Shown: piece after piece, positions 1,126-11,691 of the stretch | Layout: each line of letters begins with the position of its first letter | Numbering within the stretch: position 1 is the stretch's first letter | NCBI GenBank assembly: GCA_001919995.1 | Contig: MNIY01000174.1 | Location: 1-11,915 of the forward strand | Reading direction: 5' to 3' | Length of the DNA: 11,915 nt | Origin: Ktedonobacter sp. 13_1_20CM_4_53_11 | Lineage (GTDB): Bacteria; Chloroflexota; Ktedonobacteria; Ktedonobacterales; Ktedonobacteraceae | Program-made: the position numbers and the translations under genes | The notes under the pieces: generated by a model | What the model saw: only the letters and a program-made list of their open reading frames with translations | Databases searched by the model: none | Told to the model about the DNA's origin: nothing

Positions 1126-2265
1126 TTGAAGACAGACACCGTCATACCTAATCATCCGCCGCCTCAGGTTGGCTGGGCTCCCCCGGAGATGATAGAGCCT
1201 GAGCCAAGAAAGGACAAGCGCCTGATACAGCTCTGGAATGCGCTCACCACTCTTCCAGAGGCTCCCCCTGACGCGGACCTCGCCCAACGCGAAGCTGTGC
1301 GTAGGTCGCGATTGACCAGTAACGTATTATTTTTCTTCGTCGTCATGGTTGTTGCTCTGCTTCCGGCCTGTTACATTGCCCCGGGCCACTCGTACTTCTG
1401 GCTGGATCTGGCTCTGGCCGTTGCGTCTATCTTCGCGCTGGCGCTCAATCGTCAAGGATACACCTTAGCCGCCGGTATTCTGGTCAATCTTGCTGGCTTC
1501 TCGATACTGACGATCGCCCTCTTCACGACCATTCCATTCGACGAAACGACACTCCAGGGGTACGATATGTACGTCATTGTGGAGCTTCTAGCGGTTTCAT
1601 TGTTGCCGATGCGCAGCATCTTTCTCGTCGCAATTACAGGTGCGATATGTATTATCGCCACTTTAATATATATGCCTCATACGGCGGTACTCGACACAGA
1701 CCTGCACGATCGCCTCCTCATTATTATAGCGCGGCCTATTGGCACGTTGTTCCTTGCGGCAGGCGTTACCTACATACTGGCCTCCACCATGGCAAAAGCT
1801 ATCGAGCGTGCAGGTCGGGCTGAGTTGATCGCCCAATTTCAGCGGAAGTTTGCCGAACAGGAGCATGCGCTTGTCGAAGAACAGAAACGCGAACTTGATG
1901 TGGGCATAGGGCAAATCCTGCACACCCACGTGGCTGTGGCGAACGGCAATTTGCATGCCCGTGCGCCGCTCACCCGGGATAATATGCTCTGGCAGATCGC
2001 AGTGGCATTAAATAATCTGCTGGTGCGATTCCAGCGGGCAGCACGGGCGGAAGCAGAGCTCCAGCGCGCTGATCAGGCTATGACCTACTGCGTCGATTGT
2101 ATCCAGCGAGCCGAGCAGGATCAGCGGGTTCTCGCCCTGCCCCTTACGCACACCCATATTGATCCTTTGATCGCAGCGCTCCAGGGCAAGGCGCTCAGCC
2201 AAACTGGACACTCGCAGGACCATTCTGGCGACCGTCTACCTCCTGAGTATAACCTCAGGAGGTAG
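1126..2265 (+). CDS. six-span membrane protein with HAMP-like domain
   Basis: A 379-residue inner-membrane protein of signalling type, function unknown. Residues 1-63 are cytoplasmic and proline-rich. Hydrophobic segments lie at about 66-85, 90-107, 112-135, 146-161, 163-183 and 198-220. A charged helical stretch at 222-258 looks like a coiled coil, followed by a HAMP-like unit at about 262-303 with the hallmarks GNL (274-276) and D-x4-WQIAVALNNL. After another helical stretch the protein simply ends; there is no kinase, GGDEF, methyl-accepting or phosphatase domain. It may sense a membrane or envelope signal and pass it to a partner through the HAMP helices. The TTG start is supported by a consensus ribosome site. 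The C-terminal residues from about 368 are encoded within the terminator hairpin. It is separated from the biosynthetic genes by that terminator. The length and clean frame argue for a real, complete gene. Confidence 0.75.
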   Translation: MKTDTVIPNHPPPQVGWAPPEMIEPEPRKDKRLIQLWNALTTLPEAPPDADLAQREAVRRSRLTSNVLFFFVVMVVALLPACYIAPGHSYFWLDLALAVASIFALALNRQGYTLAAGILVNLAGFSILTIALFTTIPFDETTLQGYDMYVIVELLAVSLLPMRSIFLVAITGAICIIATLIYMPHTAVLDTDLHDRLLIIIARPIGTLFLAAGVTYILASTMAKAIERAGRAELIAQFQRKFAEQEHALVEEQKRELDVGIGQILHTHVAVANGNLHARAPLTRDNMLWQIAVALNNLLVRFQRAARAEAELQRADQAMTYCVDCIQRAEQDQRVLALPLTHTHIDPLIAALQGKALSQTGHSQDHSGDRLPPEYNLRR

Positions 2266-2274: not shown

Positions 2275-2338
2275 CCGATCCCCCCATCGGCCCTATTCAC
2301 TATCTTTGTGCTTACTACTAGTGTCTTTTACGGTAGAG

Positions 2339-2345
2339 AGGAGGT
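2339..2345 (+). promoter_or_regulatory. ribosome binding site deciding a GTG start
   Basis: AGGAGGT lies four bases before GTG 2350. This favours that codon over the in-frame GTG at 2308, which has no ribosome site and would place the Shine-Dalgarno sequence inside the coding region. Confidence 0.7.
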
Positions 2346-2349
2346 CTGT

Positions 2350-3795
2350 GTGCTATTATCTACCATTGAGATAAAGCAGAATCGTTCACTGAAGTGTTCC
2401 GATAGGCAACATGCCCTGGTCATTGGTGCCAGCATGGCCGGACTCCTGGCCGCTCGTATACTTTCGGACTATTTTGAACTGGTAACGGTTGTCGAACGAG
2501 ATCAGCTTCCCACGAATGCGGAAGCACGCAAAGGCGTTCCCCAGGGAAGGCATGTCCATCTCCTGATGTGTAGAGGAGCAGATATCATTTGGGAACTCTT
2601 TCCTGATCTCTCTGCCGCGCTTGAAGAGGATGGAGCCCTGCTGATCAGTCCTACGGAAGACTTCCGCTGGTTTCACTTTGGGAACTGGAAACTCCAGTTC
2701 CCTGGGCCTCTGCGTGTGCATAGCCAGAGTCGTCCACTGCTTGAGTACCATGTCCGTCGCTGTGTCGCAGCCAGGCCCAACGTCCGTATCCTCGACAACT
2801 GCGAGGTGCTTGGCCTCATCGGCGGTGCCGACCATCGTTCCGGTATCACTGGGGTGTGCATGCGCCGCAGGCGCGACAATGTGCAGAACGAGGAATATCT
2901 GCATACCAATCTCGTCGTCGATGCTAGCGGCCGTGGTTCGCAAACACCCTCCTGGCTGGCTGCACTGGATTATCCTCCCGTTGAAGAAACGCTCGTCAAG
3001 ATTGACGTCGGCTATGCGACCCGCATCTATCAGCGTCCAAACAATGCTCCTCGCGACTGGAAGGCCATGGGCATCTATCCATGGCCACTGGAGATGAAGC
3101 GCACCGGGTATATTTTCCCCATTGAGAGGAATGCGTGGATGGTGACACTCTCTGGCTGTTTGCGCGATCATCCCCCCGCCGATGAGGCTGGTTTCCTTGA
3201 ATTTGCCCGCAAGCTGGGCCGGCCCGATGTTTATGAGGCCATCAAGGATGCCGAACCATTGAGCCCTATTGCTATCCATAAATTTCCTGCGAACAGGCGT
3301 CGCCATTATGAACGCCTGTCACATCTACCGGATGGCCTCGTGGTGCTTGGCGATGCAGCCTGTAGCTTTAATCCTGTCTACGGACAAGGCGTGACAGTCG
3401 CTGCGCTGGAGGCCAGTACACTGCGTGCTTGCCTGGACCGGCATCTGAGTTCTCATGCTGGAAATATGGTGGGCTTCCCTCATCGCTTCCAGAAGGCTCT
3501 GGCAAGCGTTGTCGAGGCTCCCTGGCTGTTCGCCACGAGCGAGGATTTCCGCTATCCAGCTACGGAGGGCAAACGCCCCTTCGGTATTCGTCTGCTCCAG
3601 GGCTATACGCAGCGTGTATGCCGCTTGACGGCCACCAACCCCTTTGTCACTCAGTCCTTTTACGAGGTGCTCAATATGCTCAAGCCGCCAACTGCACTGT
3701 TCCACCCGCGCATACTTCTACCCGCGCTGCTTGCACGCCAAAGGGATTCTGTCGCCGCCACGTCTAGCCAATCTCCGGCGTCACACCTTGTGTAG
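2350..3795 (+). CDS. FAD-dependent monooxygenase, polyketide epoxidase-like
   Basis: A 481-residue flavoprotein monooxygenase, probably acting on the product of the adjacent PKS. The N-terminal Rossmann motif VIGASMAGL (Gly26 to Gly31) and the strand-end acid Glu49 in VVERD bind the ADP part of FAD. The second FAD motif, GDAACSFNPVYGQG (334-347), contacts the ribityl and pyrophosphate. RKGVPQGRHVH after the first strand pair, VVDASGRGS and VGYATRIYQRP match what I remember of the polyether epoxidases MonCI and Lsd18, which epoxidise alkenes on polyketide chains. That recall was not checked by alignment, and general hydroxylases share the fold. There is no signal peptide. It starts from GTG and is co-directional with the PKS, 34 bp away, so the two are almost certainly one operon. 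The reaction and substrate are inferred from family and context. Confidence 0.8.
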   Translation: MLLSTIEIKQNRSLKCSDRQHALVIGASMAGLLAARILSDYFELVTVVERDQLPTNAEARKGVPQGRHVHLLMCRGADIIWELFPDLSAALEEDGALLISPTEDFRWFHFGNWKLQFPGPLRVHSQSRPLLEYHVRRCVAARPNVRILDNCEVLGLIGGADHRSGITGVCMRRRRDNVQNEEYLHTNLVVDASGRGSQTPSWLAALDYPPVEETLVKIDVGYATRIYQRPNNAPRDWKAMGIYPWPLEMKRTGYIFPIERNAWMVTLSGCLRDHPPADEAGFLEFARKLGRPDVYEAIKDAEPLSPIAIHKFPANRRRHYERLSHLPDGLVVLGDAACSFNPVYGQGVTVAALEASTLRACLDRHLSSHAGNMVGFPHRFQKALASVVEAPWLFATSEDFRYPATEGKRPFGIRLLQGYTQRVCRLTATNPFVTQSFYEVLNMLKPPTALFHPRILLPALLARQRDSVAATSSQSPASHLV

Positions 3796-3815
3796 TACAG
3801 GAGGGAATTCAAGAT

Positions 3816-3821
3816 AGGGAG
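3816..3821 (+). promoter_or_regulatory. ribosome binding site of the PKS gene
   Basis: AGGGAG lies eight bases before ATG 3830. A stronger AGGAGGG at 3799-3805, just after the upstream stop, is 24 bases from the start and has no usable start codon at normal spacing. It may help hold ribosomes passing from the FAD-enzyme gene. Confidence 0.6.
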
Positions 3822-3829
3822 TAATTAGA

Positions 3830-6800
3830 ATGGAGGAAAGATTGGAACCAATTGCTATCATTGGCATGGGCTGCCGTTTCCCCGGTGCCCCGAATCCACG
3901 TGCATTCTGGCAACTGATGTGTAACGGAGTCGATGCGATTACGGAGGTTCCAGCCGACAGGTACGACGTCAACACCGTGTACGATCCACGGCCAGGCACT
4001 CCCGGCAAGGTGATGAGCCGCATGGGAGGATTCTTAGATCAGGTCGATCAATTCGATGCTGCATTCTTTGGTCTTTCCCCGCGCGAAGCCTCACGTATGG
4101 ACCCTCAGCACCGCTTGCTGCTTGAGGTCGCCTGGGAGGCGATGGAAGATGCAGGCCTGGTCCCAGAGAAACTCAGCGAAGAAATCGCTGGCGTTTTCAT
4201 CGGTATCATCACGGGTGATTACTGGGATCGGCAGTTCCGCAATCCCGCCAATCTCGATGTGTATGCCACGGCAGGGAGCGCTCGCAGTGGTGCCGCCGGT
4301 CGCATTTCTTATGCCCTCGGACTGCAGGGAGTGAGCGTGGCACTGGATGCGGCCTGCTCCTCCTCACTGGTGGCGGTCCATCTGGCTTGCCAGAGCTTGC
4401 GCACCGGTTCATGCACGGTGGCACTGGCGGGTGGCGTGAATGTTCTCCTCAACCCCGACCACACCATTGGGTTTTCACAGGGCAGAATGATGGCACCGGA
4501 TGGGCACTGCAAAACATTTGACGCCCAGGCCGATGGCTACGTACGCAGCGAAGGCGCAGGCGTGGTGGTGTTAAAACCCCTCTCATGTGCACTAGCCAAT
4601 GGCGATCCGATTTACGCCGTGATTCGTGGTAGCTCCTCCAACAACGATGGGCACTGTGAGTTATTTATGGCGCCGAGCGTGAAAGGGCAACAAGCCGGGC
4701 TACGCCGGGCCTACCATGACGCCGGTATCGATCCGCTGCGCGTGCACTATGTCGAGGCCCACGGCACGGGAACCAGCGTCGGCGACCCGGTCGAGATCAA
4801 GGCACTGGGTAGTGTGCTCTGCGAGGGGCGACCGGCCGACCATCCGTTGATCGTTGGCTCGGTCAAGACCAACATCGGCCACACCGAGGGTGCCGCCGGG
4901 CTAGCCGGATTGATCAAGGTTGTGCTTTGCCTCAAGCACAAGATGATCCCGCCCAACCTGCATTTCCATCAGCCTAGTCCCGCGATCCCCTGGCAGGACT
5001 ATGCCCTGATGATCCCCACGCAGCTGATCCCCTGGCCGCAGAGCGATGGCCCATGCCTGGCGGGAGTCAGTAGCTTCGGTATCGCAGGGACGAATGCTCA
5101 TGTCATAGTAGAAGAGGCAGCGCAACTGATAATGCCGGCCCCGGCATCACAGTGCGGTGCAATACCCACGACCCATCTCCTGCCCCTGTCGGCGCAGACT
5201 CCTGATGGGCTGAAAGATCTGGCAGGCAGCTACCTGAAACATTTGGAGGAGGAGGAGTACGCCGATCAGGCATTACATGATATCTGTTACACGGCAAGCT
5301 CGCGCCGCACCCATCACGACCATCGACTGGCCGTCGTCAGCCGCTCCAGACAGGATGCCCACGACAAACTAGCGGCCTTCATCCGCGGTGAGGCGGGTCT
5401 GGAACTGGTCAGCGGGCGCAAGATCACCAACAAGCAACAGAAGATTGCCTGGATTTTCCCGGGCCAGGGCTCACAGTGGCTGGGCATGGGGCACGATTTG
5501 CTCGAACAGGAGCCGGTTTTTCGCGCCGCCATCAAGGCATGTGACCAGGTGATGCGCCACTACGTTGATTGGTCACTGCTCGAACAGTTGCAGGCCGACG
5601 AGGACCATTCGCGCCTCTCCGACATCGATGTGATCCAGCCGATGCTCTTCGCGATCGAGGTGGCCCTGGCCGCCCTCTGGCGCTCGTGGGGTATCGAGCC
5701 TGACATGGTGGTCGGTCACTCTATGGGAGAAGTTGCTGCGGCCTATGTGGCCGGAGCACTCAGTCTAGAGGATGCCGCCTGGATCATCTGCTCCCGCAGC
5801 AAGCTGCTTCTCCGTACGAGCGGCAAGGGGGCTATGGCGGCCGTAGAGCTCTCTCTTGATCAGGCAAGGACGATTGTCTCTGATTACGAAGAGCGTGTCT
5901 CTGTGGCAGTGAGTAACAGCGCAAGCTCGACGGTTCTGTCAGGCGATCCGCAAGCACTGGCCGAAATCCTGACCATACTCGAGCGCAACGGCGTCTTTGG
6001 CCGACTCGTCAAAGTAGACGTCGCCTCGCACAGCCCACAGATGGATCCGCTGCGCGATGACTTGCTCAGGCTTATGGAGCGCGTGCAGCCACGCAGGGCA
6101 GCGATTCCGATGTACTCGACGGTTCACGGAGAAATCATTGACGGGAGCGAGCTCGCGGCCCAGTACTGGGTAAACAATCTACGCAAGCCAGTGCTCTTCC
6201 TCGCCGCTATACAGGCGTTGCTGGAAGACGACTACGGCATCTTCATGGAGATGAGCCCGCATCCGATCCTGGTCGGTGCCGTCAGACAGACCATCGAGCA
6301 GAGCGAAAAGTCCGGACTGGCCCTCTCGTCGATGCGGCGCGATGAGGAGGGACGGGCCGCGATGCTGGCGACGCTCGGCACACTCTACACACAGGGATGC
6401 CCACTCAACTGGTCCGCGCTGTATATCACCGGAGGACATCACGTTCCCCTGCCGACCTATCCCTGGCAACGCCAGCGCTATTGGAACCCCAATATCGACC
6501 GTCCTCAATCTGGCGCCATCTCATCTTTCCAGGCTCGGTGCAGCGACGGGACGTCCCATCCCATCCTTGGCAGAAGCATGCAGTCAGCACTCCATCCCAA
6601 TACGTATTTCTGGACCACCGACATTGATACGGAGATCTTCCCCTACCTGAGCGACCACCGCGTGCATGATATGCCAGTGCTGCCCTGTGCGGCCTATATC
6701 GAGCTGTCCCTCGCCGCCGCGACTGAGATCTTCGGACCGCAGCGCTTCAGCGTCGAAGATCTTGAACTCACGAAGGCCCTCTTCTTCTCGAAAGGGACCA

Positions 6801-9256
6801 CGCAGACCCTGCAGGTGATCCTGACGCCGGAGGCGAACGAGGGGAAGATGACCCTATGCTTCTTCAGCACACAGGCGAGACAGGATAAGCAGGCGGCGGT
6901 GTGGACGCAGCACGCCAGCGTGACCGTGCGGCGCGAGGAGGAACCGCTGCTGAGGGAGGAGATCATCCATCTGTTGCCTGAACAGGTCCAGAGCGAGTGG
7001 ATACTGGCGATGGAGGCTCCGAAATACTATCAGGGCCTGCGTGCTCGCGGCATCCAGCATGGTCCACTTTTTCAGGGCGTCACGCAGGTCTGGCGGCGTC
7101 CGGGCGAGGTGATGTCGCACATTACGATCCCAGAAGGGGTGGCTGACGATATGTCCGGCTACCAGGTACATCCGGCGCTCATGGACGCCTTCCTGCAAGG
7201 TATCACGCCGTTCCTGCCTGAGGAGAACGAGGATACCTATGTACCGGTGGTGGTGAAGCGGGTAAAGTTCTACCAACGGCCAGTCCCTGGCGGCAAGCTG
7301 TGGACGCACGCGATTGTTCGGCAGGAGGCGAACGGCGATCAAAGCACCCTTGAAGGCGACGTCATCCTGCTCGACGAGCAAGGGCGGGTTCTGCTAGAGG
7401 TGCTGGGCTTCCGCCTACAATCTCTGGACGGCAATACGCAGGATTTCATGCGCCAGCGTCTGAATCAGTTACTGTACACCATCGACTGGGAGCAGCAGGC
7501 TCGCAGCGAACAGCGTGCGAAGGGCACACCGCGCAAGAACTGGCTGGTCTTCAGCGAGCACGACGGGCTCGGCCAGGGACTGGCCCAACACTTGCGAGCC
7601 AGCGGTGCAAGCTGCGTGATCGTGACGCCCGGCCAGTCATACAAGCAGGTTGAAGACCAGCATTATGAATTGTCTCCGGCAACCCCCGAGGAGTTTGACC
7701 GACTCCTCAGCGAGTTGTACAGTAAGAACGGTGAGCAGGCCATCGGCATCGTGTACCTGTGGGGCATGCTGACGACCTCGGTGAACGAGAGCATGCGGCA
7801 ACCTTTGCGTGCGAACCAGGACCTGGTCAGCATCGGCGTACTGCACTTGATCCAGGCATTGACAGCGGCAAAGAAGGAGACGTCCTCCCGACTCTGGCTA
7901 GTAACCAGCGGCGTCCATACCATCGAGGAGCAGGATAGGACGACCGCGCTGTCACAGGCAGCGCGGTGGGGATTGGGGCGCGTGATCGTCTATGAGCACC
8001 AGAATCTGCACTGCACCTTGATCGATCTCGATACAACCCCTTCAGAGGAGTGCCTGGGAACCCTGTTCAGGGAAATCTGGTCCGATGAAGAAGCCGACGA
8101 GGTGGCGCTGCGCGGCGACAGGCGCTACGTGGCCAGGCTCACTCGCCATGCCTTGCTGCATGGGCAGGGGCAGGCGGAGGCCCTCTTCCGCTCGGACGGT
8201 ACCTACTTGATTACTGGAGGCTTGGGCGGCGTAGGCCTCCGAACGGCTCAGTGGATGGTCGAGCAGGGCGCACGACATCTTGTCCTCATGGGACGCCGAG
8301 GAGGTACCGAGGAGGCGGAAGCCACGCTGCAAGCCATGCGCGAAACCGGAGCGGCCGTGCGTGTACTGAAGGGAGATGTCGCACGGGAAGAGCAACTGGC
8401 GAACGCACTGGTCACGATACGGCGCGAGATGCCACCGCTACGCGGCGTCTTCCACTGCGCCGTCGTGCTGGATGACAGCACCCTGCTGCAATTGAATCGC
8501 GAGCGCTTTCTAGGTGTGATGCCACCCAAGGTGGACGGGGCCTGGAACCTCCACCGTCTGACGCTGGATGAGCCGCTGGACTACTTCGTCCTATTCTCGT
8601 CGGCGGCATCACTGATCGGTTCGCCTGGCCAGGGCAACTACGCAGCGGCCAGCGCATTCATGGATATGTTGGCCTACTACCGCAGGCAGCAGGGCTATCC
8701 AGCGCTGTGCATCAATTGGGGCCGTTGGGGCGAGGTCGGTCAGGCCATGAAGGAGAACCGGGGCGAGCGCCTGGACTTTCGTGGCTTCGCGAGTATGAAG
8801 CCCAAAGAGGGGCTGGCGATCCTGAGGAGCCTGCTGCACCAGAGCCCACCACAGGTCGGTGTGATGTCGTTTAACCTGCCCAAGTGGAGCCAGTTCTATC
8901 CGAACTTGACCAGGTCTTCGCTCTTCGCTCACCTGCTCGAAGAGCCCGGAGCGCAGCAAGAGAACAGAGCCGGGGGACCGCTCCTGACGAGCGAGATGCT
9001 GGCCGAACTGGACGATGAACTGCGTCAGCAGACGCTCATGCAGTACCTGAGCGACCAGATTGCCAGGGTGCTGGGTCACACCTCGCTGAAGCTCGATGCT
9101 CACCAGCAACTCAACCGACTGGGCATCGACTCGCTGATGTCTGTCGAACTAAAGAACCGCATCGGATCAGACCTGAACGTGGTCATCCCGGTCACAGCTT
9201 TCCTGCAGGACGTCACCTTTGAACAGCTCATCACACAGATCCTAGAGCAGATCTAG
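3830..9256 (+). CDS. single-module type I PKS, KS-AT-DH-KR-ACP
   Basis: An 1808-residue cytosolic megasynthase that extends an acyl chain by decarboxylative condensation and leaves double bonds. KS (about 6-430): Cys176 in DAACSSS, His311 in VEAHGTGT and His351 in VKTNIGH, a complete triad. AT (about 541-860): Ser631 in GHSMG and His734 in VASH; GHSMGE with VASH recalls mycobacterial Mas/Pps enzymes, so methylmalonyl or malonyl use is open. DH (about 905-1200): His943 and Asp1119 (HPALMDAFLQ) are present, but the usual HxxxGxxxxPG reads H-RVH-D-MPVL-PC. A structural psiKR (about 1210-1450) leads straight into KR (about 1455-1640), leaving no room for an enoylreductase. KR has GGLGGVG (1463-1469), an LDD motif (1547-1549, B-type), Ser1591 and Tyr1604, but Ser1608 where Asn is usual. 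ACP (about 1725-1805): Ser1768 in GIDSLMS. There is no thioesterase, loading module or docking segment. As the only module here it probably works iteratively. It is co-transcribed with the FAD enzyme. Confidence 0.93.
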   Translation: MEERLEPIAIIGMGCRFPGAPNPRAFWQLMCNGVDAITEVPADRYDVNTVYDPRPGTPGKVMSRMGGFLDQVDQFDAAFFGLSPREASRMDPQHRLLLEVAWEAMEDAGLVPEKLSEEIAGVFIGIITGDYWDRQFRNPANLDVYATAGSARSGAAGRISYALGLQGVSVALDAACSSSLVAVHLACQSLRTGSCTVALAGGVNVLLNPDHTIGFSQGRMMAPDGHCKTFDAQADGYVRSEGAGVVVLKPLSCALANGDPIYAVIRGSSSNNDGHCELFMAPSVKGQQAGLRRAYHDAGIDPLRVHYVEAHGTGTSVGDPVEIKALGSVLCEGRPADHPLIVGSVKTNIGHTEGAAGLAGLIKVVLCLKHKMIPPNLHFHQPSPAIPWQDYALMIPTQLIPWPQSDGPCLAGVSSFGIAGTNAHVIVEEAAQLIMPAPASQCGAIPTTHLLPLSAQTPDGLKDLAGSYLKHLEEEEYADQALHDICYTASSRRTHHDHRLAVVSRSRQDAHDKLAAFIRGEAGLELVSGRKITNKQQKIAWIFPGQGSQWLGMGHDLLEQEPVFRAAIKACDQVMRHYVDWSLLEQLQADEDHSRLSDIDVIQPMLFAIEVALAALWRSWGIEPDMVVGHSMGEVAAAYVAGALSLEDAAWIICSRSKLLLRTSGKGAMAAVELSLDQARTIVSDYEERVSVAVSNSASSTVLSGDPQALAEILTILERNGVFGRLVKVDVASHSPQMDPLRDDLLRLMERVQPRRAAIPMYSTVHGEIIDGSELAAQYWVNNLRKPVLFLAAIQALLEDDYGIFMEMSPHPILVGAVRQTIEQSEKSGLALSSMRRDEEGRAAMLATLGTLYTQGCPLNWSALYITGGHHVPLPTYPWQRQRYWNPNIDRPQSGAISSFQARCSDGTSHPILGRSMQSALHPNTYFWTTDIDTEIFPYLSDHRVHDMPVLPCAAYIELSLAAATEIFGPQRFSVEDLELTKALFFSKGTTQTLQVILTPEANEGKMTLCFFSTQARQDKQAAVWTQHASVTVRREEEPLLREEIIHLLPEQVQSEWILAMEAPKYYQGLRARGIQHGPLFQGVTQVWRRPGEVMSHITIPEGVADDMSGYQVHPALMDAFLQGITPFLPEENEDTYVPVVVKRVKFYQRPVPGGKLWTHAIVRQEANGDQSTLEGDVILLDEQGRVLLEVLGFRLQSLDGNTQDFMRQRLNQLLYTIDWEQQARSEQRAKGTPRKNWLVFSEHDGLGQGLAQHLRASGASCVIVTPGQSYKQVEDQHYELSPATPEEFDRLLSELYSKNGEQAIGIVYLWGMLTTSVNESMRQPLRANQDLVSIGVLHLIQALTAAKKETSSRLWLVTSGVHTIEEQDRTTALSQAARWGLGRVIVYEHQNLHCTLIDLDTTPSEECLGTLFREIWSDEEADEVALRGDRRYVARLTRHALLHGQGQAEALFRSDGTYLITGGLGGVGLRTAQWMVEQGARHLVLMGRRGGTEEAEATLQAMRETGAAVRVLKGDVAREEQLANALVTIRREMPPLRGVFHCAVVLDDSTLLQLNRERFLGVMPPKVDGAWNLHRLTLDEPLDYFVLFSSAASLIGSPGQGNYAAASAFMDMLAYYRRQQGYPALCINWGRWGEVGQAMKENRGERLDFRGFASMKPKEGLAILRSLLHQSPPQVGVMSFNLPKWSQFYPNLTRSSLFAHLLEEPGAQQENRAGGPLLTSEMLAELDDELRQQTLMQYLSDQIARVLGHTSLKLDAHQQLNRLGIDSLMSVELKNRIGSDLNVVIPVTAFLQDVTFEQLITQILEQI

Positions 9257-9303
9257 CAAGCATACTATAGTGACCCAGATTTTCAAGACACAAAAATCGT
9301 GGT

Positions 9304-9331
9304 TTCTAAGGTGCCGTCTCCTTTCTTAGAA
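9304..9331 (+). terminator. weak hairpin after the PKS gene
   Basis: TTCTAAG (9304-9310) and CTTAGAA (9325-9331) form a perfect seven-base stem over a 14-base loop, 48 bases after the PKS stop. There is no U-tract, so a terminator role rests only on position at the end of the operon. Confidence 0.25.
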
Positions 9332-9396
9332 CGAGAGCAATAGATCTTCGAGTGTGCATCAGTCAGCCTCACTCGTCAACAAATGCCCGCTGATCT

Positions 9397-9755
9397 TTAC
9401 GAGAAAAGTGCGTCAGCAGAAATATAGCGTTCTACCCATTGGCGGAATGGCAATTGCTCATCCCACCAGGCGGTGTGGGTTCTTTGAACATACTCCCATA
9501 CAATCAAAAAGCAGGGCTGGAAGTGGTTGTCCAGCGCATCTTTTGCCTGTTCAATCACTTCTTCTACCCATTCCACATCAGCGGGTGAAGTCCGAACTCG
9601 CCTTTGGTACTGGTCACAAAGACGTTTTGCCCAAACAAACCAAAGGGGATCGGTTCGGCTTGCACAAACAGGCCAAGATCAAAATGATCAAGCGCCCTTT
9701 GGAATTGGTGAGGGGAAATTTCCCCTAAGCGTCGTGAGTAGTTCATTGGCTCCAT
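9397..9755 (-). pseudogene. decayed aminoglycoside-phosphotransferase-like gene
   Basis: Two overlapping minus-strand frames give consecutive pieces of one protein family. The first (9755 down to a stop at 9564) begins MEPMNYSRRLGEIS and contains FGLFGQNVFVTSTKGEF, which resembles the N-terminal lobe of APH-type phosphotransferases as I remember them. The second frame (the stretch read from about 9567 to a TAA at 9397) reads EEVIEQAKDALDNHFQPC and then LIVWEYVQRTHTAWWDE and FRQWVERY, like the helical and C-terminal end of such proteins. Only about 120 residues remain where the family has roughly 300, and the catalytic HGD-x-N and DFG-like DxD segments are absent. A frameshift near 9590 and a large internal deletion therefore explain the remnant. 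The plus-strand frames over this stretch are its antisense shadows. The family call is from memory of sequence texture. Confidence 0.55.
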
Positions 9756-9914
9756 CCAATACTTGGACTGTCTACAACTTCATCATCTGGATTAATCTGG
9801 ACGAAATGCATCTTACCAGATTTACACCTTACAAGCCAATAGATTTTTGTCTGAAATCTTAGGGTCATTATAGTTACAGCAAATAGAAATCGTTCGTTAC
9901 AATCAACAGATAAG

Positions 9915-9941
9915 TTGCCTGACGTACTGGTGAACAGGCAA
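9915..9941. repeat. inverted repeat upstream of glycosyltransferase
   Basis: TTGCCTG and CAGGCAA are perfect seven-base arms around a 13-base spacer, about 77 bases before the glycosyltransferase start. It could be an operator or a leader hairpin; nothing more can be said from the sequence. Confidence 0.3.
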
Positions 9942-10017
9942 ACAGTATTCCTAATCTCCTGGTTAGGCTCGATTTCAAAGCTCGTGTTCATAGGATGAGG
10001 AAGGAGAACATACGTGG

Positions 10018-11691
10018 ATGGAACCGAAGCCTATCGATCTTGTCTGCAACATTGATGTACATCAATTAGAGCCGGATGTAGCAGCTCCGCCAGAAATACC
10101 ACGCCCCAAAAGATTCCTGGAGAGGCTTCGTCGCTCTCAAAATGTGGTCATTGGTGGCGTCTTGTTTCTCGCGGCCCTGGGCTTCAACCTCTATCGCCTG
10201 GGAACCCCCAGTATCTGGTTCGACGAAGCATTTTCCGTTGAGCTTGCCCACCAACCCTTGTCCCTGCTGTGGCACATTCTCTTTGGTGTGGAGCCCAATA
10301 TGGAACTGTATTATCTCTTCCTCCATTTCTGGCTCCAGTTGACCGGAGCACTCGGTCTCATCCCCACCGAGTTTGTCGTACGCCTCCCCTCAGCGATTTT
10401 CGCCGCTCTGAGCACCCTGGCCCTCTTTGTCTTTGGACGACGGTTCCTGGGCGTGTGGGCCGGGGTCGTCGGCGCCAGCCTCTATCTGCTGAACGATCTG
10501 CAACTGACCTATGCGCAAGAGACCCGGGGATACAGCCTACAACTCCTCCTGCTCTGTCTGGCCTGGTACGCGCTCTTCACGGCCTTCACCAACGAAACGC
10601 GGACCAGACGCTGGTGGCTCTGCTATGTTGTCACGATCACCCTGGCCTTCTATACCCACCTGTTCAGTGTACTCATTTTCCTCGCACAACTGACGACGGT
10701 CGCTGGCCTGGTGCTCGTGCCCAATTCCTGGCGTGTACAGATCCGCAAGCGCCTCCTCGCCTTTGGGGCCAGTCTGCTGGCCAGTGGGATCTTGAGCATT
10801 CCCATGATGATCCTGGTGAGCCGTCGGGGATCGATAACGGGCTGGCTTCCTCTTCCCCATCTCCAAAACGTGTTCATCCTGTTTTTCAATATCAGCGCGA
10901 ATAGCAAGATCTACCTGGCTCTGCTTGTCGCGTTCTGTGGACTTGGTCTGTTTGCCGCACTGCTATCGCATCTTCCTCCCCATACACCGCTCCAGAACGT
11001 CCTGACCACGCATGCTTCGGGAAAAGAGGAGGAGACATTACGCCAGCGTTTGCCCATGGCTTTTGCTTTACTCTGCTGGTTGATCCTGCCAGTGGTCATC
11101 AGCTACGTTGTTTCGCAGGGCCACACCCGCCTCTTCTCGACCCGTTACCTGGTGACCATTGTGCCTCCACTCTGTTTGCTCGTCGGCTTAGGGGTTGCGA
11201 CCCTGCGTTCTCAGGGAGTGAAAATCGCACTTGCTGCTGCTCTAATTGCGCTTGCCGTTCACTATACGCCGCTGTACTACGCGCATGCTCAGGTAGAGAA
11301 TTGGAACATCCCCACCTCCTGGTTAGTCCAGCGGTATCAGCCAGGTGATGGCCTGGTCTGCTACACCAATGCGCAGGGCTGCCAGATCTCGGTGGAGTAC
11401 TATCTGTCCCGATATCAGTCCGATGCGCACTTCGACGCCGATTCCCCTGGCGCTTTTTCGTGGGAGAACCACGGCCCTGCGAACTATGATGCGGCCGTTG
11501 ATCTCACTGCTCTGGCAGCCTATGGTGCTCAGCATCCTCGATTATTCTTCATTGTTGCTCGTCTGCCAGATCGGACTGCCTTTTTGAAGGCCCAGGCAGC
11601 CGAGAAGTGGTTAGATAGCCAGTACCATTTTGTTGGACAGATTGTCACCTCTGCCGTGACTATTCGCTTGTACGTGACAAAGGCAGCATAA
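10018..11691 (+). CDS. GT39-like membrane glycosyltransferase
   Basis: A 557-residue integral membrane protein of the GT-C fold (ArnT/PMT/GT39 type), which transfers a sugar from a polyprenyl-phosphate donor to an acceptor on the outer face of the membrane. After a 40-residue cytoplasmic, proline-containing tail, the first span is about 43-62. It is followed by the external loop with WFDEAFS, where Asp69-Glu70 is the expected catalytic or metal-site pair. QETRGYS (167-173) matches the second conserved GT39 motif. Further spans lie at roughly 121-140, 144-162, 172-190, 198-216, 217-234, 247-267, 297-318, 346-366, 378-397 and 402-420. Residues 421-557 form a soluble, probably extracytoplasmic domain. 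ATG 10018 is chosen because AAGGAG (10001-10006) lies 11 bases upstream; a GTG at 10014 is out of frame and stops after 13 codons. The acceptor is unknown: protein, lipid or a cell-wall polymer. A link to the PKS product is possible but unsupported beyond proximity. Confidence 0.8.
   Translation: MEPKPIDLVCNIDVHQLEPDVAAPPEIPRPKRFLERLRRSQNVVIGGVLFLAALGFNLYRLGTPSIWFDEAFSVELAHQPLSLLWHILFGVEPNMELYYLFLHFWLQLTGALGLIPTEFVVRLPSAIFAALSTLALFVFGRRFLGVWAGVVGASLYLLNDLQLTYAQETRGYSLQLLLLCLAWYALFTAFTNETRTRRWWLCYVVTITLAFYTHLFSVLIFLAQLTTVAGLVLVPNSWRVQIRKRLLAFGASLLASGILSIPMMILVSRRGSITGWLPLPHLQNVFILFFNISANSKIYLALLVAFCGLGLFAALLSHLPPHTPLQNVLTTHASGKEEETLRQRLPMAFALLCWLILPVVISYVVSQGHTRLFSTRYLVTIVPPLCLLVGLGVATLRSQGVKIALAAALIALAVHYTPLYYAHAQVENWNIPTSWLVQRYQPGDGLVCYTNAQGCQISVEYYLSRYQSDAHFDADSPGAFSWENHGPANYDAAVDLTALAAYGAQHPRLFFIVARLPDRTAFLKAQAAEKWLDSQYHFVGQIVTSAVTIRLYVTKAA

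Follow-up and report, generated by a model that had tools for sequence, protein, structure and literature searches.

A MonCI-like flavin monooxygenase paired with a one-module polyketide synthase in a Ktedonobacterial lineage: a candidate two-gene route to oxygenated polyenes

What might a flavin-dependent oxygenase be doing immediately upstream of a polyketide synthase (PKS) that lacks an enoylreductase (ER)? The question is raised by an 11,915-base stretch of contig MNIY01000174.1 (hereafter the window, meaning the whole of the DNA analyzed) from Ktedonobacter sp. 13_1_20CM_4_53_11, a Ktedonobacteria-type soil bacterium, in which a flavin adenine dinucleotide (FAD) enzyme and a one-module PKS form a two-gene unit. 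An original prediction, made from the letters of the sequence, took the pair for a polyether-type epoxidase and an alkene-forming synthase. The explanation we favor, at a probability of roughly 0.55, is that one transcription unit encodes both enzymes, the PKS supplying an unsaturated chain to which the FAD enzyme adds oxygen, most likely by epoxidation. The pair is laid out as follows.

2350–3795, + strand: MonCI/Lsd18-related class A-type flavin monooxygenase (P0002), about 481 amino acids, recognized by phmmer against the PDB, by fold search and by a GGAGG ahead of its start.
3796–3829, + strand: intergenic gap of 34 bp between the stop of the FAD gene at 3795 and the ATG of the PKS gene at 3830, which GGGAG precedes.
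3830–9256, + strand: stand-alone type I PKS (P0003), KS-AT-DH-KR-ACP with neither ER nor thioesterase, 1808 amino acids from an ATG start, recognized by Pfam and active-site motifs.

Both reading frames are open and intact. In the list of open reading frames (ORFs), that of the FAD enzyme is open over 2308–3795 on the + strand (495 amino acids), with the GTG at 2350 as its likely start, because GGAGG precedes it and the closest database protein, 99% identical, begins (MLLST) at the same residue. Coordinates and Pfam matches agree with the originally predicted arrangement, an FAD enzyme 34 bp before an ER-less KS-AT-DH-KR-ACP synthase.

Against the PDB, the FAD enzyme matches MonCI at 1.2e-79 (271 bits, homology over the full length) and Lsd18/LasC at 1.6e-67, with the next family at 0.026. 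A fold search of its model points to a MonCI-type fold, and its FAD-contact residues are the same as those of MonCI and Lsd18. It also has the RKG.PQ..H.H and FNP.YGQG blocks, the adenine-site Arg and the flavin-stacking His (H84, present in 105 of 105 rows compared) that characterize a wider MonCI-like family. On sequence grounds, then, the enzyme is a member of this wider family that lies outside the polyether epoxidase clade; for members outside that clade, no assigned function was found among the names of the matches or in the consulted portions of the literature. Two other identities were considered and rejected: that of a geranylgeranyl reductase or UbiH-type hydroxylase, at 18–29 bits against cut-offs of 159–653 in the seven NCBIfam models listed, and that of an FAD halogenase, the closest sequence match not being a halogenase. 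Profile and fold searches therefore leave intact the original grouping of the enzyme with MonCI and Lsd18, and not with aromatic hydroxylases, halogenases or geranylgeranyl reductases.

The synthase has Pfam domains for KS (residues 6–380), AT (541–854), DH (910–1201), KR (1457–1634) and ACP (1739–1802), and no ER or thioesterase model matches it. The active-site blocks DAACSSSL, GHSMGE, VASHSPQ, HPALMD, GQGNYAAA and GIDSLM are all present, and in 50 aligned homologues the commonest variants of these blocks are identical or nearly so. The KR has LDD, a signature of B-type KRs, from which E-alkenes are expected once dehydration has taken place. Domains and active-site motifs agree with the original expectation that C=C bonds remain in the product. 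Among PDB entries, mycocerosic acid synthase (MAS; E 7e-295), an iterative enzyme, matches the PKS best, and this match and the lone module suggest that the window PKS may also work iteratively, although the match is not proof of iteration because modular erythromycin-type chains score closely behind. The AT motif VASHSPQ is common to MAS and the window PKS, and its VASH is common to MAS, MxaF and StiA. Between residues 1449 and 1450 of the window PKS, the alignment skips from residue 1411 to residue 1758 of MAS; the ER of MAS should lie in this stretch, and the window PKS, unlike MAS, has none. In the PKS tree, the window falls within a clade of 39 rows (itself included; 100% support) of Ktedonobacterial stand-alone KS-AT-DH-KR-ACP synthases, and the PKS of Ktedonobacter robiniae is 71% identical to it. 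Domains, intact sites and clade make it a Ktedonobacterial stand-alone reducing type I PKS.

The FAD enzyme is best read as a monooxygenase that tailors a chain of the polyene type, most likely by epoxidizing it. This reading draws on the intact sites of both enzymes, the adjacency of their genes in the window, the recurrence of the pair in one subclade as seen by a contig proxy, and a Met that runs through that subclade, together with the modeled MonCI-type fold. In the mechanism proposed, the PKS would assemble an unsaturated (E-alkene) acyl chain, presumably through several rounds of extension. Once NAD(P)H had reduced it, the FAD enzyme would react with O2 and move oxygen onto C=C bonds of this PKS's product, giving an epoxide at one or more of them by way of a C4a-hydroperoxyflavin, as is thought for MonCI and Lsd18; release of the chain would fall to an enzyme whose gene lies elsewhere. 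Epoxidation is preferred as the outcome because it is the reaction of the two characterized relatives, MonCI and Lsd18.

Does the pair recur? Protein database matches, the best 120 of 7391 FAD homologues and the best 120 of 7987 PKS homologues, were compared by a linkage proxy, in which two genes count as paired when the longest contigs of their cluster representatives (the only members considered) are of equal size and the source labels agree. The position of interest is residue 87, the equivalent of MonCI Trp60. Over 121 FAD rows (the window and the best 120 homologues), it is Met in 20, Leu in 99, Thr in one and a gap in one, and the 19 of these 20 Met87 rows that were tested group together (support 96/91) in a tree that omits P0007, keeps the trait column and does not hold the outgroup together. 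Among the 120 listed FAD matches, 33 come from contigs at least 10 kb long: all seven with Met87 are size-paired with a listed PKS match, as against none of the 26 without it (Fisher 2.3e-7, with kinship ignored). P0033, the row with the gap at residue 87, is below this limit, as is P0007 (8 kb), the cluster of the window itself. Each of the seven pairs agrees in at least one source label, Ktedonobacter sp. SOSP1-52 being among them, and two of the contigs are so small (13,038 and 11,761 bp) that the FAD and PKS genes there are necessarily close together. A mirror-tree comparison over the window and the seven loci showed correlated FAD and PKS identities (r 0.85 over 28 comparisons; Mantel p 1e-4). 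Seen by this proxy, the pair recurs in related metagenomes; the pairing is genuine but uneven, being tied to one Ktedonobacterial FAD subclade with Met at the MonCI Trp60 site.

Three groups of findings weigh against the favored explanation, as does the reliance of the linkage on a proxy of cluster representatives. The first concerns the FAD enzyme itself, which is 35% identical to a 98% MonCI-like protein. The available text of the MonCI paper gives two motifs said to be exclusive to polyether enzymes, RKG[VQ]PQ[AG]RH[AV]H[LVI]LWS[NSG]GA and AFNP[IV][YH]GHGMS[SCVA][AS]A (PMC10560226). For the first, the window has RKGVPQGRHVHLLMCRGA, where three residues, M, C and R, depart from it (core LLMCRGA versus LLWS.GA); for the second it has SFNPVYGQGVTVAA (core SFNPVYGQGVT versus AFNPIYGHGMS). 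The signatures fail at MonCI W60, S61 and H334, among other places. At the Trp60 site, W occupies 18 of 18 MonCI-type rows, M all 12 rows of the window's subclade (Met87 in the window) and L 69 of the 75 others. At the His334 site, H is found in 17 of the 18 MonCI-type rows, and Q in 12 of 12 rows of the subclade (Gln360 in the window) and in 74 of the 75 others, so that the GQG block is the norm of the family. The 18 MonCI-type rows form a group of their own (100% support, stem 0.99), with the window elsewhere, in a 105-row FAD tree by quick search that is without Lsd18, omits nine Chloroflexota loci, duplicates and short ORFs, and keeps 21 and 18 rows of two 120-row lists.

The stretches on which the original prediction relied, RKGVPQGRHVH, VGYATRIYQRP and FNPVYGQG, are all present in the FAD enzyme, yet they are not indicative of polyether enzymes because they are widespread in the family. 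Blocks of the RKG.PQ..H.H and FNP.YGQG types span FAD homologues of the Chloroflexota, Cyanobacteriota, Nitrospirota, Pseudomonadota, Myxococcota, Acidobacteriota and Actinomycetota, an occurrence across phyla that rules the stretches out as marks of a polyether epoxidase. Most Bacillota homologues have FDP instead of FNP, and the pattern for the first block was unmatched in many rows of this survey. As a description of the enzyme, "polyether-type epoxidase" holds for homology and fold kinship but not for the signatures or the clade.

The second group of findings concerns distribution. PKS homologues 55–71% identical occur at six loci in five reference genomes (at most 10 candidates having been scored per genome), and in the six regions read no FAD homologue stands beside the PKS, unlike in the window; the best FAD matches in these five genomes are only 38–44% identical. 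FAD-family matches (E 0.001 or better) are present in 20 of the 47 genomes of the class, some with several paralogues. On the PKS side, 30 of the 38 database members of the 39-row clade come from contigs at least 10 kb long and only seven are paired; the 23 unpaired rows include P0127, the window's own 98% relative, and some of them may be true absences and others loci that a cluster representative conceals. In the PKS tree the eight paired loci do not group together: the label takes 8 changes, and shuffled labels took as few in 500 of 500 trials. Since the best 120 of 7987 PKS homologues were listed, a distant PKS beside an FAD gene outside the subclade would escape. A tblastn search with P0003 gave matches in three of 54 wider-family loci, many with short flanks, at no more than 25–31% identity, so that such PKSs are no regular companion of the wider FAD family. 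Conserved co-occurrence, which the original prediction had put forward as a check, is borne out on the FAD side within one subclade, but on the PKS side for only seven of 30 homologues and in none of the five genomes.

The third group concerns missing partners. A Pfam scan covered 12 of the 30 window ORFs of at least 80 amino acids, each of the remaining 18 overlapping the gene for the FAD enzyme, the PKS or the glycosyltransferase, and among the 12 neither an epoxide hydrolase or cyclase nor a release enzyme was found, in keeping with the early statement that the window holds no MonB/Lsd19-type epoxide hydrolase. As neither kind of enzyme was found among the scanned ORFs of these 11,915 bases, this is most probably not a polyether system.

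Among competing explanations, the one that survives best is that the FAD enzyme carries out another oxygenation of the PKS product, namely hydroxylation, Baeyer-Villiger insertion or oxidative cleavage, with the MonCI-like fold repurposed. We consider this unlikely. Monooxygenases of related fold catalyze many reactions, and two polyether-diagnostic sites differ (Trp60 to Met87 and His334 to Gln360). From its place after the flavin-stacking His, Lsd18 Trp74 would be the equivalent of MonCI Trp60, and the portion of the Lsd18 report available lists it among the residues that touch substrate (PMC12144862). However, Gln is the norm of the family and so need not signal a new reaction, the PKS is predicted to leave alkenes, and the sole characterized close relatives found are both epoxidases.

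More improbable still is an FAD enzyme that acts on an unrelated substrate, such as a lipid or a foreign compound, with the PKS as a mere neighbor. The family is large, has several paralogues in some Ktedonobacterial genomes and is mostly found away from such PKS genes, and the five genomes with a PKS but not this FAD gene, like the 23 of 30 PKS homologues without a size-matched FAD match, would fit an accidental association. Set against this are the FAD-side linkage, limited to one clade and complete where testable, the mirror-tree correlation and the 34-bp gap. A full polyether-type pathway, in which a polyepoxide would undergo epoxide-opening cyclization to cyclic ethers, is very improbable: the fold and sequence kinship to MonCI and Lsd18 that speaks for it is outweighed by the failed signatures and separate clade, the lack of a hydrolase or cyclase match in the scanned ORFs, and a single PKS module where polyethers have multimodular synthases. 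That the enzyme is a geranylgeranyl-reductase-type reductase saturating the chain in place of the missing ER is extremely improbable, since its weak NCBIfam similarities (DGGGPL reductase, 7.2e-7; GG-red-SF, 1.7e-4, a model also matched by 13 of 15 close homologues, at best 6.3e-9) fall far below the cut-offs (28 versus 580 bits and 21 versus 159 bits) and MonCI matches at 271 bits.

The reading of the FAD enzyme as a probable epoxidase of the PKS product can be taken further, although the longer version is tentative and on balance doubtful. In it, the iterative one-module PKS would make a methyl-branched or plain polyene, which the Met-bearing MonCI-like enzyme would convert to an epoxy-polyene, the enzyme having been recruited once in the Ktedonobacterial lineage, apart from the actinobacterial polyethers and the fungal pathways with a flavin monooxygenase (FMO).

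Among known systems, MonCI (monensin) and Lsd18/LasC (lasalocid) resemble the window in full-length homology, predicted fold, FAD-contact residues and a type I PKS partner, and differ from it in having LLWS and GHG where the window has LLMC and GQG, in sequence (35% identity) and in clade. Polyether clusters carry an epoxide hydrolase/cyclase and a multimodular PKS; the window has one module and no epoxide hydrolase in its scanned ORFs. A functional analogue is found in fungi, where AurA-type synthases are iterative. In the aurovertin, citreoviridin and asteltoxin pathways, as far as the accessible text of the source describes them, the PKS AurA, the FMO AurC and the epoxide hydrolase AurD form a small cluster in which a pyrone-polyene is epoxidized (PMC12312803). 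These pathways share with the window a polyene-making synthase and an epoxidizing FMO, and differ in being fungal and in having a methyltransferase and an epoxide hydrolase; the likeness is one of function.

The remainder of the window holds three further features.

2230–2271, + strand: terminator-like 18-bp hairpin followed by TTT, from sequence and RNA folding.
1126–2265, + strand: membrane protein (P0001) with no Pfam match, with 60–61% identical neighbors in L122–L125.
10018–11691, + strand: PMT_2-type membrane glycosyltransferase (PF13231, 4.5e-8).

The hairpin (-38.8 kcal/mol, z -8.8, with none of 200 shuffles equally stable) overlaps the 3' end of the membrane-protein gene, extends past it and divides P0001 from the FAD-PKS unit. 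It is a likely terminator, although not one listed by a simple terminator scan, and because it stands upstream, the FAD and PKS genes look like a transcription unit of their own and would be co-transcribed. In four of the five PKS-bearing reference genomes (L122–L125), a homologue of P0001 is the divergently oriented neighbor of the PKS; the protein is probably not part of the chemistry. In relatives, the membrane protein (window 1126–2265; L122 12225–13406; L125; L001 6768–8426) adjoins a protein of 178–225 amino acids (13561–14097 in L122), apparently as a recurrent pair; Pfam scans of three such small proteins gave no match. The glycosyltransferase has no homologue in 13 regions of relatives, six of which hold this PKS at 54–71% identity, and is probably unrelated to the unit. 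No Rfam model matched the window at gathering score, no relative of the locus was found in viral contigs, and 147 matches in plasmid records were each below 60% identity.

Few neighbors are shared within 4 kb of wider-family FAD genes, and six run against Pfam were a mixture. The sole recurrent type of note is SnoaL-like (PF07366), near FAD genes in five of the 54 wider-family loci, which come from Chloroflexota and other groups (L012, L021, L028, L005 and L008) and within 80 bp in two of them. The gene lies at 9439–9849 in L012, beside an FAD gene at 9914–11365, and at 11475–11888 in L021, beside one at 9932–11398. MonB and Lsd19 share the general SnoaL-like fold, and such pairs might comprise an epoxidase and an opening enzyme; for the L012 protein, no Lsd19 chain was matched in the PDB at E 10.

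Relatives of the PKS have neighbors of other kinds. In L124, from a 13.7-Mb genome (G033), a convergent cytochrome P450 gene (4860–6098) lies 142 bp from an FAD-less PKS gene (6241–11676) and could supply a different oxygenase for the same chain; L122 and L123 have no corresponding P450 ORF at that place. The same genome has, on a 64.7-kb contig, a second PKS copy (L126, 6155–11164), perhaps decaying or mobile, which is without about the first 120 residues and stands beside a resolvase gene and a SnoaL-like gene (5625–6011). Another Ktedonobacterial PKS, about 42–43% identical over most of its length, occurs in L131 and L132 among other long ORFs.

In titles and abstract openings of the mostly open-access literature on MonCI/Lsd18 epoxidases, Ktedonobacteria PKSs and iterative polyene PKSs, no paper describing this FAD-PKS pair was found, and the words "epoxidase" and "monooxygenase" are absent from the main text of two Ktedonobacteria papers. 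The original remark that no example had been described holds for this bacterial pair; a small fungal cluster with a polyene-making PKS and an epoxidizing FMO is already known from the accessible part of its description (PMC12312803). What we rate as new is a MonCI-like enzyme outside the polyether clade that is tied, in one lineage, to a one-module Ktedonobacterial PKS. If the favored explanation is true, the pair would constitute a minimal bacterial route to epoxidized polyenes, of two genes and about 7 kb, far below polyether clusters in size and readily expressible in a standard host, and the natural variation at a substrate-touching residue would offer a test of substrate choice in the MonCI-like family.
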